In this document: positions 21,746 to 25,707 of the stretch, piece by piece
Layout of the letters: the number at the start of each line of letters is the position of its first letter
How positions within the stretch are numbered: position 1 is the first letter of the stretch
Origin: Euzebyales bacterium
GTDB taxonomy: Bacteria; Actinomycetota; Nitriliruptoria; Euzebyales; JAHELV01
Assembly: GCA_036374135.1 (NCBI GenBank)
Contig: DASUUK010000069.1
Coordinates: 1 to 63,720, forward strand
Direction: 5' to 3'
Length of the DNA stretch: 63,720 nt
Program-made: the position numbers and the translations under genes
Notes under the pieces: generated by a model
Database searches by the model: none
The model's input: only the letters and a program-made list of their open reading frames with translations
What the model was told of the DNA's origin: nothing

Positions 21746-24223
21746 TCACAGCACCCCGGCGTGTTGGAGGCGGCCCGCAGCGCGGATGCCTGGCGCCAGC
21801 GGCAGCCAGAAGGTCACCAGTCGGTGCGCGAGCACACCGGCGACCGCGGGGGCCGCCGCGATTCCCACGGCGACCAGACCGAGCACGAGGGTGGCATCGA
21901 CCACACCCACGCCGGCCGGCGTCGGCACGAGCGCGCTGATGGCCGCCGCCAGCAGACAGGCGAGAGCGATCCGTCCGAAGCCGACGATCGGCGAGAACGC
22001 GCGTACCGACATGAACAACACGAGCAGCACCGTCGCCGTCCGGGTGGCGCGTCCGCCGAACAGCAGTGCGGCGCGGAGCGGATCCGTGCTCACGTGCCGC
22101 AGATCGCGCCAGGCCCGTAGCGCGCGCAGCGACCGTCGCAGGTGGCGCTGCGGCACCCGCAGCAGCAGCCCCGTGGCGACCGCCGGGAGGACCGGGACCG
22201 CCAGCAGCGCCGCGTCGGCCGGCACGTCACGGACGTTGCGCGTCAGTTCGGATCCTGCGAGCACGGCGGCGGCGGCGAGCAGGACCACGTTCACGACCAG
22301 ACCGGCCAGGCGGTCGACGTCTGCCGTGCGCTTCGCGGCATCCCGCGTGGCGCCCGCGCGCTCGGTCAACCGGGCGCGCGTGGAGGCCTCCCGCGCCGGG
22401 GCGTCGGCGAGCGCCTCGACGGCCGGATCGGCGATCTGGGTCAGCGTCGTCGATCCCAATGGCAATGGCACCTGGGCCGCGGCCCGCAGCGCGACGGCTC
22501 CGCCGACGTACTGCAGGCCCGCCAGCGCGGCGGCGGCGGCGATGAACGCCCACTCGGGAGTCGTGAGCACTGCCAGCGTCCGGTCGAACGCACCAACCTG
22601 TGGCAGGAATCCGAACACCGTGATGCCGACGATCGCGATGCCGATCACGGTGCGCCGATCGGTCGTGACCGGGGCCAGGGACGGCGGTCCCGGCACGGCG
22701 GTGGCCTCGACGACCGCCGTCCGGAGCGCCTCGAACCCGCACGTGGCGCGCAGCGCACGTCGGATCGGCCCGGACAGCGCGAGCGGTTGCAGCTGCACCA
22801 GCGCGCCGCCGACGGTCGTGGCGTCCAGCACGTCGACTGCCGCGGCCACGGCGCGCCGCGCGCCCGCCACGGCAGCGGTGGCCGCCAGGAGCTCCGCAAC
22901 GTCACGTCGAAGCGCGGCGTCACCCGCGCCGACGGTCGCGTAGCGCAGGCCGGTGAGCGTCACCGCCCCGTCGTCGGCGACGATCCAGTTGCCCGGTCCC
23001 AGATCGCCGTGCGCGATCCGGCGCGCATGCAGGTCCCTGAGCTGGCCCCACATCACGCGCAGCATGCGATCGTCTACCGAGCCGGGTGGGAGGCGGTCAG
23101 CGGCGGTGCCATCGATGAACGCCTCGACCAGCACACCGGAGCCGTCCGGCGTCACCGTTGCACCGACGACGCTCGGTACACGGATGCCCGCCCGCGCAGC
23201 CAGCAGCGTCGCCGTCGCCTCGTGGTCGGTCGCGTGGCCGGGCGTGGTCAGGGGGTCGGCGTCCTCCGGATCGTCGCGCACGATCCACCGCCACAACCGC
23301 GCCAGGAGATCGGCGTCACGCTGCTGCACGCCGGCGATGCGCACGAACAACGGCTCTCCGTCAGCGACCGTCACCGCGAACGGCGTCGTCCGGCGCCCAC
23401 GGGAGCGCAGCGGGACGCACGTCGAGACGTGGAACCCGAGCGACGTCAACGCGTCGCTGACGAATGCGGCATCGGGCCGGTGGCGCGGTGCGCCGCGCAC
23501 GAACAGCACCGCCGCGCCGGTCATCCATCCCAGCGCTGCGCCGGCGACGACGTCGTAGGGCAGATGCGCACCGATGTACAGGCGCGAGAACCCGACAACG
23601 GCCACGACGACCCACGTCACACGCCGCCACCGCCGGGGCAGCCACGGACCGGCGACGGTCGCCAGGGCCGCCGCAACCCCGGAGTGGCCCGACGGGAAGC
23701 CGAGCCCCGCCTGGGGCGAACCACGGACGATGACGTCCGCCAGCAGCTCGGCTGGCCGGCCCCGCTCGATGAGCAGCTTGAACCCCTGCATCGCCAGCCA
23801 TGCGCCGACGCCGACGATCGCCAGGTCGAACGCGAGCCGCCGCCGCCCCGTGAACCATGCCACCGCGGCCGAGGCGGGGACCGCCAGGAACTGACCGGCC
23901 TGCATGACGACATAGACGATCGGCAGCACCACGCCCGTGACATGGTTGGGCAGGCGGAACAGGTCGATCTCGAAGATGCCGACCTCCGGTCGCCGCGCCA
24001 GCCAGGTGCCCGCGAGCCCGATCGCGGCGCCGCACACGGTGCGCACGATGTCGGTCCGGTCACGCACATGCTCGCGGTCGGTCGCCTCGACCCGCTCCAT
24101 CGCCACGTCAACCGCCTGTCCCTCTGCGGTCCCCTCATCGGCATCGACCACGCCACTCATGGACCCAACCCGTCCGATCATCGCGATGGCAGCATCATCG
24201 CCTGCCGTGGCCACGACATACAT
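21746..24223 (-). CDS. PAP2 phosphatase - kinase-like - MprF-type flippase triple fusion
   Basis: This 825-residue protein has three parts. Residues 60-240 are a membrane PAP2 phosphatase (KLLIERGRP at 149-157, PSGH at 177-180, SRLYIGAHLPYD at 213-224). Residues 285-470 are a protein-kinase-like fold with the catalytic-loop motif HGDLGPGNW (405-413). However, the VAIK-type lysine position reads FVRIAG and the DFG position reads TLTG, so phosphotransfer is doubtful. Residues 525-825 resemble the lysylphosphatidylglycerol synthase/flippase membrane domain (LLAAAISALVPTPAGVGVVDA). It probably acts on a lipid at the membrane. The N-terminal 50 residues are poorly conserved, and ATGs near 24160 or 24100 are possible starts. 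Confidence 0.85.
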   Translation of the reverse strand: MYVVATAGDDAAIAMIGRVGSMSGVVDADEGTAEGQAVDVAMERVEATDREHVRDRTDIVRTVCGAAIGLAGTWLARRPEVGIFEIDLFRLPNHVTGVVLPIVYVVMQAGQFLAVPASAAVAWFTGRRRLAFDLAIVGVGAWLAMQGFKLLIERGRPAELLADVIVRGSPQAGLGFPSGHSGVAAALATVAGPWLPRRWRRVTWVVVAVVGFSRLYIGAHLPYDVVAGAALGWMTGAAVLFVRGAPRHRPDAAFVSDALTSLGFHVSTCVPLRSRGRRTTPFAVTVADGEPLFVRIAGVQQRDADLLARLWRWIVRDDPEDADPLTTPGHATDHEATATLLAARAGIRVPSVVGATVTPDGSGVLVEAFIDGTAADRLPPGSVDDRMLRVMWGQLRDLHARRIAHGDLGPGNWIVADDGAVTLTGLRYATVGAGDAALRRDVAELLAATAAVAGARRAVAAAVDVLDATTVGGALVQLQPLALSGPIRRALRATCGFEALRTAVVEATAVPGPPSLAPVTTDRRTVIGIAIVGITVFGFLPQVGAFDRTLAVLTTPEWAFIAAAAALAGLQYVGGAVALRAAAQVPLPLGSTTLTQIADPAVEALADAPAREASTRARLTERAGATRDAAKRTADVDRLAGLVVNVVLLAAAAVLAGSELTRNVRDVPADAALLAVPVLPAVATGLLLRVPQRHLRRSLRALRAWRDLRHVSTDPLRAALLFGGRATRTATVLLVLFMSVRAFSPIVGFGRIALACLLAAAISALVPTPAGVGVVDATLVLGLVAVGIAAAPAVAGVLAHRLVTFWLPLAPGIRAAGRLQHAGVL

Positions 24224-24304
24224 GACGCGTCCGCGGTCGCGTTGCGGCCGCCGTCATCGCGCCGGTGGACCGCGGCCGCCGAGCGGCGCTCTGCACGCGG
24301 TGCG

Positions 24305-25156
24305 TCAGGTGTCCGCGCGTCCCCTTCCGTCCCGGGTAGGTGGCGCCAACGTCAGCGCGGCCCGGCGATCAGCGGCCGACAGGGCCGCCCTCGAGTACGC
24401 CGCGGTGCCCTCGGCCCGCAACGCGCGTGCGGCGGCCGCCAGTGCCCCGTAGGCGGCGAAGGCGAGCGCTCCTCCTGTCGAGACGCGCCGCACGCCAACG
24501 GCTTCGAGCTCTGGGACAGACGGACCCGAGCTCAGCAGCAGGACGTTGACGGCGCCGCCGGTCTCCTCGACGACCCGTGCGATCCGATCGATGTCGTCGA
24601 GGCCCGGCGCGTAGAGCACGTCGGCGCCCGCGTCCCGGTAGGCGAGCAGGCGCCGGATGGTGTCGTCGAGGTCGTCGCGGCCGTAGAGGTGGTTCTCGGC
24701 GCGTGCGGTCAGCACCATGCCGTGGTCGTGAGCGGCGGCGGCCGCGACGGCCACCCGCGCCGTGGCGGTCGTCAACGGGTCGATGCCATGGCGGGGGTCG
24801 TAGTCCTCGATGGACAGACCTGCAGCGCCGGTCTCTGCGAGGCGGCTCACGTTCGCCGCGATGGCCTGCGGCCGGTCCGCGTAGCACCGCTCGGCATCGA
24901 TGCTGACCGGGATGTCGACCGCGGTGGCGAGCGCGGTCGCGTGGTCGACGAGCTCGTCGAGGGTGACGAGCTGGTCAGCGCGGCCGAGCGACGCCGCATG
25001 GCCGGAGCTCGTCGTGGCGATCGCGGCGAAGCCGAGCGAGGCGAGCACCCGCGCCGATCCGACGTCCCAGGCGTTGGGCATCACGAACAGGCCCTCGTCA
25101 TGCAACCGCGCGAAGCGGCGGCGCAGCGCTTCGGGGTCGTTGGCCTCCAGCGGCAT
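24305..25156 (-). CDS. Isocitrate lyase/PEP mutase superfamily protein
   Basis: This 283-residue alpha/beta-barrel enzyme begins LHDEGLFVMPNAWDVGSARVLASLGFAAIATTSSGHAASLG, a typical start for the oxaloacetate-decarboxylase-like branch of this superfamily. SIDAERCY occupies the metal-binding D-A-D-x-G-Y region with changes, and TARAENHLYG and SIEDYDP are also present. The ATG at 25156 is chosen because AGGAGA lies six nt upstream. It probably cleaves or forms a C-C or P-C bond in a small 2-oxo acid, but the substrate is unknown. Confidence 0.8.
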   Translation of the reverse strand: MPLEANDPEALRRRFARLHDEGLFVMPNAWDVGSARVLASLGFAAIATTSSGHAASLGRADQLVTLDELVDHATALATAVDIPVSIDAERCYADRPQAIAANVSRLAETGAAGLSIEDYDPRHGIDPLTTATARVAVAAAAAHDHGMVLTARAENHLYGRDDLDDTIRRLLAYRDAGADVLYAPGLDDIDRIARVVEETGGAVNVLLLSSGPSVPELEAVGVRRVSTGGALAFAAYGALAAAARALRAEGTAAYSRAALSAADRRAALTLAPPTRDGRGRADT

Positions 25157-25215
25157 CGCTGTCTCCTGTGTACGGGGCACCGGTCCGGGCGCCGCGGTAC
25201 GCCCGCGTCACCCTG

Positions 25216-25707
25216 TCAGGTCTTGCGCACGACCTGCTCGCCCTCGCCCGGCCGCCAGACGGTGATCAGCAACTGGTCGTCCTCGATCGCCACCGATGAC
25301 GCTCCCGTGAGCTCGGCGACGTGGAACGGATCGAACGTCTGCCCCCGCAGGTCCATCCCTGTCTGCTCGTACAGATCCGCCGCGAACCGCTGGTGGAGGT
25401 CGTCGTCCGGCACGTGTGTGGCTTCGCCCCACAGCTTGGCGTCGCCGTCGCTCACGTAGGGGTCGACGGTGGCCGTGTGCAGGCAGAACCGCGGGTCGCG
25501 ACCGAGGTCGCGGAACTTCGTGGTGCCGGGCATGCCCACGAGCACCAGGTGGTCCTCGAAGAGGCGTGGCTCCATCGGACTGATCCGGGGATACCCGTCG
25601 GACCGCAGCGTGGCGAGCAGGCACAGGTTGCCGGCGGCGGCATGGCGACGGACGAACACATCCGCGATCCGGGGCGCCTCGGCGGCGAAGTCGTTCCAGG
25701 TGACCAT
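25216..25707 (-). CDS. Pyridoxamine 5'-phosphate oxidase-like flavin/F420-binding protein
   Basis: This 163-residue split-barrel protein has LCLLATLRSDGYPRISPMEPRLFEDHLVLVGMPGTTKFRDLGRDPRFCLHTA, the usual PNPOx-like fold sequence. ATG 25707 is the first start consistent with the fold; the frame stays open upstream but without similarity. Members bind FMN, F420 or haem and reduce varied substrates. It lies 59 nt downstream of the PEP-mutase-family gene's start on the same strand but precedes it, so co-transcription is possible. Confidence 0.78.
   Translation of the reverse strand: MVTWNDFAAEAPRIADVFVRRHAAAGNLCLLATLRSDGYPRISPMEPRLFEDHLVLVGMPGTTKFRDLGRDPRFCLHTATVDPYVSDGDAKLWGEATHVPDDDLHQRFAADLYEQTGMDLRGQTFDPFHVAELTGASSVAIEDDQLLITVWRPGEGEQVVRKT

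Follow-up and report, generated by a model that had tools for sequence, protein, structure and literature searches.

Can one actinobacterial polypeptide couple the dephosphorylation, the sensing and the translocation of a lipid? This question is raised by a gene in a stretch of DNA of 63,720 nucleotides from a Euzebyales bacterium (assembly GCA_036374135.1, contig DASUUK010000069.1), here called the window. An earlier note, made from the letters of the window, had described the gene product as a membrane PAP2 phosphatase fused to a kinase-like domain without DFG and to an MprF-like flippase, and had proposed that the middle domain may be a pseudokinase or a lipid-binding regulator. Domain and profile searches, structure prediction, family alignments, a tree and the comparison of gene neighbourhoods were combined for the analysis of the fused gene and its relatives.

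Genome searches and scoring of active sites

Relatives of the fused protein were searched in 41 related genomes, in 396 genomes of the phylum and in a species-level genome collection. A scan of the genome contigs with the single sequence gave no match, and the relatives from there were obtained with an alignment as query. The source genome, in draft form, comprises 115 contigs. Kinase domains were taken as active if the beta3 Lys, the HxD Asp, the Asn and the DFG Asp were all present.

Reading frame and domain layout

The frame of 825 codons on the minus strand is unbroken, and the layout of PAP2, kinase-like and MprF-like domains given by the earlier note is borne out by Pfam hits together with an AlphaFold model of the kinase fold (Table 1). 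An inner ATG may be the true start; confidence in the AlphaFold model is low for most of residues 1-43. GC3 is even along the gene, with 0.87-0.90 in the PAP2, kinase and flippase parts and 0.92 in the altered TM3a-3b stretch, and no convincing homologue match was found at the altered sites in any other frame. On both grounds the odd flippase motif is not put down to a frameshift or to faulty assembly. A chance arrangement is contradicted by relatives in other genomes that match several of the domains. Opposite most of the fused gene lies a frame of 1105 aa (22142-25459, plus strand), which is a high-GC shadow and not a gene.

Table 1. Features of the fused gene in the window (residue numbers refer to the fused protein)
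Feature	Position	Strand	Evidence
Fusion of PAP2, RIO/Bud32-like predicted pseudokinase and LPG_synthase_TM (MprF-like) domain, 825 aa	21746..24223	-	open frame and Pfam
PAP2 phosphatase domain, residues 52-245	23489..24070	-	Pfam and identity to intact members
PAP2 motif 1, K149xxxxxxR156P157, intact	23753..23779	-	family alignment
PAP2 motif 2, S178-G179-H180, intact	23684..23692	-	family alignment
PAP2 motif 3, R214xxxxxH220xxxD224, intact	23552..23584	-	family alignment
Kinase-like domain, residues 250-510, RIO/Bud32-type, without activation segment	22694..23476	-	AlphaFold, fold match, profile
Beta3 (VAIK) lysine replaced by Arg295	23339..23341	-	family alignment
Catalytic loop H405-G-D407-L-G-P-G-N412, Asp and Asn kept	22988..23011	-	family alignment
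DFG position T424-G425-L426-R427, Gly425 in place of the metal-binding Asp	22943..22954	-	alignments
Asp441 (alpha-F type Asp), invariant even in the dead kinases of the family	22901..22903	-	60-member alignment
LPG_synthase_TM domain, MprF flippase subdomain-1-like, residues 526-812	21788..22648	-	Pfam, MprF profile
TM3a-3b half-gate motif, residues 601-620, replaced (F601A, P607D, G611R, L620T)	22364..22423	-	alignment
TM7a-7b half-gate PTPAGVGVVD, residues 767-776, kept in kind	21896..21925	-	alignment, MprF comparison
Arg801, kept, at the place of the gate arginine of MprF	21821..21823	-	MprF profile

The PAP2 phosphatase domain

The PAP2 domain is the sole module of the fused protein that is intact throughout. 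It is matched by Pfam PAP2 at residues 140-241 (E=3.4e-18; 66.1 bits against a gathering cut-off of 27.2) and is 36-49% identical to the PAP2 domains of intact members of the family. The PAP2 profile of the family matches LpxE with E=2.7e-18 and a PgpB/YodM chain with E=1.2e-13, while the SepP undecaprenyl-diphosphatase model matches the fused protein with E=7.2e-12 at 45.6 bits, below its equivalog cut-off of 250. All three catalytic motifs are common to LpxE, PgpB, undecaprenyl-diphosphatases and the fused protein, from which the latter differs in that its PAP2 domain is joined to two extra domains. From its sequence the phosphatase looks active, and its substrate is likely a polyprenyl or other lipid (di)phosphate. 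Basic loops at about residues 125-130, 194-201 and 246-250 are on the side away from the catalytic loops according to the sequence and the helices of the model, which by the positive-inside rule would place the active site of PAP2 on the outer side of the membrane and the kinase on the inner side.

Fold of the kinase-like domain

In Pfam the middle domain stays below threshold (ABC1, E=0.062), with no match to RIO1, and in NCBIfam the matches, to serine/threonine kinases and to the Kae1-associated kinase Bud32, are weak. The two Bud32 models reach 26.5 bits (cut-off 188) and 25.1 bits (cut-off 125), short of membership. The fold is recognised nevertheless: when the middle domains of 47 homologues are made into a profile, protein kinases of solved structure are matched with E-values down to 2.7e-10, residues 250-515 modelled alone with AlphaFold reach a mean pLDDT of 91.6, and this model was aligned by VIA-align to RIOK3 with Z 17.9 (3.4 A, 199 residues) and to PRPK/Bud32 with Z 17.8. 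With the whole fused protein as query, the match list of Foldseek was filled by kinases. The family alignment places the next long helix almost directly after the DFG position, with no activation segment, and RIO and Bud32 kinases likewise have none after DFG. The middle domain therefore shares with RIO and Bud32/PRPK the fold (Z 17-18) and the missing activation segment, whereas it differs from them in lying between two transmembrane domains and in lacking the Lys and the DFG Asp. The RIO/Bud32 likeness is one of fold only and not of membership in a curated sequence model.

Catalytic residues of the kinase-like domain

The three residue readings of the earlier note were all confirmed. HGD is kept in the catalytic loop as His405-Gly406-Asp407, together with Asn412; arginine stands for the VAIK lysine (Arg295); and TLTG, which is Thr422-Leu423-Thr424-Gly425, occupies the position of the DFG aspartate, the precise replacement being Gly425. 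This register is backed by the alignment of 113 sequences and by pairwise BLASTP to a distant intact homologue (VTLTGLRY/VALIDVFF), and the strand at residues 421-423 of the model stops just before the DFG position. Since no acidic residue occurs between Asp418 and Asp435, no nearby Asp can slide into this place. The alpha-C Glu335 is kept. Two of the four residues used for scoring active kinases are thus lost in the fused protein while the kinase fold is retained, so that the middle domain is a predicted pseudokinase on the evidence of alignment and model, as had been suspected, and a regulatory role would be its most sensible reading. According to the earlier note, a different alignment with a catalytic Asp elsewhere, or orthologues with Lys and DFG in place, would speak against this reading; no nearby Asp fits, but orthologues do keep Lys and DFG, as described below.

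The MprF-like flippase domain

The C-terminal domain is matched by Pfam LPG_synthase_TM (PF03706; residues 526-812, E=1.2e-16; 61.5 bits, cut-off 33.4) and by the MprF profile NF033480 (E=4.4e-9, 35.2 bits, cut-off 600). The latter aligns residues 550-813 to profile positions 36-291, and its end offset places Pro769, Asp776 and Arg801 at 247, 254 and 279. As the gate residues of Staphylococcus aureus MprF are Pro247, Asp254 and Arg279 (PMC8131360), the TM7a-7b half of the gate is kept in kind. In the R. tropici MprF structure, TM3a-3b and TM7a-7b are inverted half-membrane helix pairs; its gate is formed by the Pro-Ala-Gly loop of TM7a-7b, by Glu280 and by the TM8 residue Arg304, and the TM3a-3b loop packs onto this gate (PMC8131360). 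An erosion of the second flippase motif by G770A and E776D was considered and rejected, since Ala occurs at the first of these places in R. tropici MprF and Asp at the second in S. aureus MprF.

At the TM3a-3b half-gate the PAGxGG of the relatives reads within LADAPAREAS, with charged residues, in the fused protein. Among the matches listed (113) Pro607 is present in 104, Gly611 in 102, Phe601 in 103 and Leu620 in 104. Because a motif of nearly all relatives is lost here, lipid translocation by the fused protein is doubtful. The claim of an MprF-like flippase accordingly holds for the domain, for TM7a-7b and for Arg801, but not for the TM3a-3b half-gate. Searched against PDB sequences, the profile of the flippase domain gave no real match, so that the link to MprF rests on Pfam, NCBIfam and the correspondence of motifs. 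MprF and the fused protein have flippase subdomain 1, the TM7a-7b Pro-Asp pair and the TM8 Arg in common; the fused protein differs in scoring far under the cut-off of the model, in the lost TM3a-3b motif and in ending at residue 825, just past the flippase region, without a GNAT synthase domain.

Relatives and the loss of active sites

At least 113 proteins, the fused protein counted, span most of the layout. They are mostly from Actinomycetota, with Nocardia, Mycobacterium, Mycolicibacterium, Rhodococcus, Streptomyces, Nonomuraea, Geodermatophilus, Micromonospora, Acidimicrobiia and others as hosts, and 48 of the 396 genomes of the phylum sample have a match at E<=1e-30. A relative also occurs in a Candidatus Saccharibacteria MAG (L070). 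The genome search found the fused protein to be absent from three congeners. One member is publicly annotated as 'lysylphosphatidylglycerol synthase domain-containing protein', and a literature search, conducted mostly outside subscription journals, returned no paper on the three-domain layout or on any member. Tandem three-domain copies, both with an intact kinase and with one intact and one degraded PAP2, were seen in an unclassified bacterial MAG (L067:7758-12491), and two three-domain paralogues with degraded PAP2 and kinase lie a few kb apart in an actinobacterial groundwater MAG (L092:6762-17225).

Scored at the fixed catalytic positions, the proteins fall into classes whose existence does not depend on sampling but whose sizes do, as C-terminal flippase motifs served as the seed of the collection search: among the 113 matches listed, PAP2 and kinase are both intact in 13, PAP2 is lost with an intact kinase in 16, and both are lost with the layout kept in 80. 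Two further proteins among these matches have an intact PAP2 and a kinase with Lys and both Asp kept that is otherwise incomplete, and lack the flippase domain, and one has a lost PAP2 and a partly intact kinase. An intact PAP2 with a dead kinase is seen in a single protein of the 113 listed, the fused protein itself. That the layout is kept in 80 doubly dead proteins (among the matches listed) points to a non-catalytic role of the kinase fold.

The nearest three-domain relatives among the matches listed, at about 35-40% identity, are L002, L032-L034 and the Nocardia-type L058-L062; the relatives compared reach about 40% identity at most. These nearest proteins mostly read FVK, HRDxRxxN and VDFG or IDFG. 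The family thus includes apparently competent kinases, and the view of the pseudokinase as a family trait has to be given up, since Lys and DFG are intact in the nearest three-domain orthologues; for the fused protein itself the reading as a predicted pseudokinase holds. Together with the restriction of the dead kinase with intact PAP2 to the fused protein, the intact nearest relatives point to a loss in its own lineage. In the tree the fused protein groups with L003, L036 and L037, which are PAP2-kinase proteins without the flippase domain (SH-aLRT 96 with all columns and 86 with the PAP2 and kinase columns only). On a tree of 81 rows, in which gains and losses are indistinguishable, the minimum numbers of changes are 11 for the Lys, 8 for the HxD Asp, 9 for the Asn, 12 for the DFG Asp and 4 for the PAP2 SGH motif; there are few independent pairs of PAP2 and kinase loss.

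With the topology of 11 PAP2-intact proteins kept fixed, the terminal branch of the fused protein has 0.85 substitutions per site in PAP2, 1.26 in the kinase and 1.62 in the flippase domain. The lowest rate being that of PAP2, constraint has been strongest on this module. Mean identities to the intact relatives are 0.45, 0.37 and 0.32 for PAP2, kinase and flippase, respectively, compared with 0.47, 0.43 and 0.39 among those relatives. Of 62 family-conserved positions 48 are kept in the fused protein, Asp441 and the MprF-type gate residues included. Taken together, this is a large and apparently unstudied actinobacterial family in which active sites die in differing combinations.

Gene context and a cluster of separate genes

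The same types of modules occur as neighbouring genes elsewhere. In a congener (G002, L157:817-5078) genes for a flippase (PF03706), a PAP2-like-kinase protein and a small lipoprotein-like protein overlap, and a stand-alone PAP2 gene, the product of which is 44% identical to the PAP2 of the fused protein, lies divergent to the cluster. The source genome itself has the same run of genes on another contig (C18, L185:5878-9466; flippase gene at L185:5878-7203), with 79%, 85% and 72% identity to those of the congener. The cluster kinase of the congener has the Lys, HRD, the Asn and the Asp of the DFG position all present, and the cluster kinase is homologous to the fused kinase (E=2e-16 to a Nocardia protein). 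The run looks like an uncharacterised envelope-lipid operon. Modules that are fused in one place and adjacent in another are good evidence of joint action, and the functional tie among the three modules is upheld by their adjacency in the genus and in the source genome. Related PAP2-kinase genes are also found in L142, L144 and L066. Directly upstream of the three-domain gene, a stand-alone PAP2 gene is located in Nocardia pseudobrasiliensis (L059:8013-8678) and on a Mycolicibacterium gilvum plasmid (L147:5203-5835).

A conserved operon partner of the fused gene was sought and rejected, as the neighbours vary by lineage and gave no hint of a function: examples are helicase-like, MGMT-like and ThiF/MoeB-like genes in Streptomyces (identified by inspection), P-type ATPase and PPDK genes in one Nocardia and an FtsH gene in G016. 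In the last genome the FtsH-type protease gene runs straight into the three-domain gene (L138:5047-7017), and members of the same protease cluster are also near the three-domain gene in L059 and L091. The source genome further contains two UppP/BacA genes, one other clear PAP2 gene and three other LPG_synthase_TM genes, so that an essential role of the fused protein is not implied.

Discussion

The best explanation, to which we give a probability of roughly one half, is that the fused protein is an outer-leaflet lipid-phosphate phosphatase joined to a pseudokinase that serves as scaffold and to a membrane domain derived from a flippase. PAP2, with its active site outward, would dephosphorylate a polyprenyl or other lipid (di)phosphate, the cytosolic RIO/Bud32-fold pseudokinase would act as a scaffold or sensor with no phosphotransfer, and translocation of a lipid by the flippase-derived domain is doubtful. 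In the ancestral form a RIO-like ATPase or kinase may have gated lipid-phosphate dephosphorylation and flipping on envelope lipid carriers; the fused protein would keep the phosphatase reaction alone, with the kinase and flippase modules retained as structural or regulatory parts. Since Glu335, Asp407 and Asn412 are retained, some nucleotide chemistry is possible, and the long branch could instead reflect slow decay.

The idea raised at the outset, a machine in which one lipid is dephosphorylated, sensed and moved, for example in the recycling of undecaprenyl phosphate, is unlikely in its full form. It would suit the intact PAP2, the gate residues kept as in S. aureus MprF, the relatives with three intact modules and the tie given by fusion and gene neighbours, but the TM3a-3b half-gate is charged, unlike that of nearly all relatives, and the flippase is the fastest-evolving module. 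What stands of the proposed coupling is the link among the modules, whereas translocation is doubtful with TM3a-3b lost and one shared lipid is unsupported. A decaying paralogue under relaxed selection, with kinase and flippase dead and PAP2 to follow, also seems improbable: key residues are lost in two of the three modules, these evolve at 1.5-1.9 times the rate of PAP2 on the branch, possible replacements exist in the source genome and three congeners lack the protein, yet the frame of 825 codons is intact, with even GC3 in the three domains and no sign of a frameshift, and most family-conserved positions, among them Asp441 and the gate residues, have been kept.

It is very improbable that the kinase is not truly dead and that Arg295 and other basic residues hold a nucleotide for ATP sensing or an unusual transfer. 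Asp407, Asn412 and Glu335 are kept, and the DLHK pseudokinases of proteobacteria, in which the HRD Asp and the Asn are kept and Lys and DFG are degraded, have been modelled to bind ATP via arginines (PMC12599244). The nearest three-domain relatives among the matches listed, however, use canonical residues, and the altered pattern is found among these matches in the fused protein alone, with no sign of conservation. DLHK proteins share with the fused protein the pattern of a kept HRD-type Asp and loop Asn with lost Lys and DFG; they differ in having no transmembrane regions and other partner domains, whereas the kinase of the fused protein is flanked by membrane domains.

In mycobacterial MviN, a MurJ lipid II flippase, a C-terminal pseudokinase (ActPs3) is a scaffold that recruits FhaA (PMC12599244). 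By analogy, MviN is the closest counterpart in working principle, as both proteins carry a lipid flippase module and a pseudokinase on one actinobacterial polypeptide; the fused protein is outside the MviN/ActPs3 family. In MviN the flippase is of the MurJ type, there is no PAP2 and each of the three kinase motifs is degraded, whereas the fused protein has an MprF-like flippase and a RIO/Bud32-like kinase with HGD and Asn kept, and there is no MurJ family among its Pfam matches. Flippase-pseudokinase fusions are thus known, with a dead kinase that tunes cell-wall synthesis in MviN, and the present family is a separate fusion made of other domain families.

For the family as a whole, a unit for the recycling of envelope lipid carriers is a speculative and quite improbable reading, in which PAP2 would dephosphorylate in the outer leaflet, the MprF-type domain would return the lipid phosphate, and gating by the RIO-like kinase would answer to a nucleotide or a partner. 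If this were true, the MprF fold would join DedA and DUF368 as another class of polyprenyl-phosphate translocase, and the repeated catalytic loss, that of the fused protein included, would mean that a switching enzyme has become a fixed scaffold. The cluster of separate genes makes the coupling of the modules testable one gene at a time, and the living, half-dead and fully dead versions that coexist in the family form a natural series on the use of a kinase fold to a lipid enzyme after its catalysis has gone.
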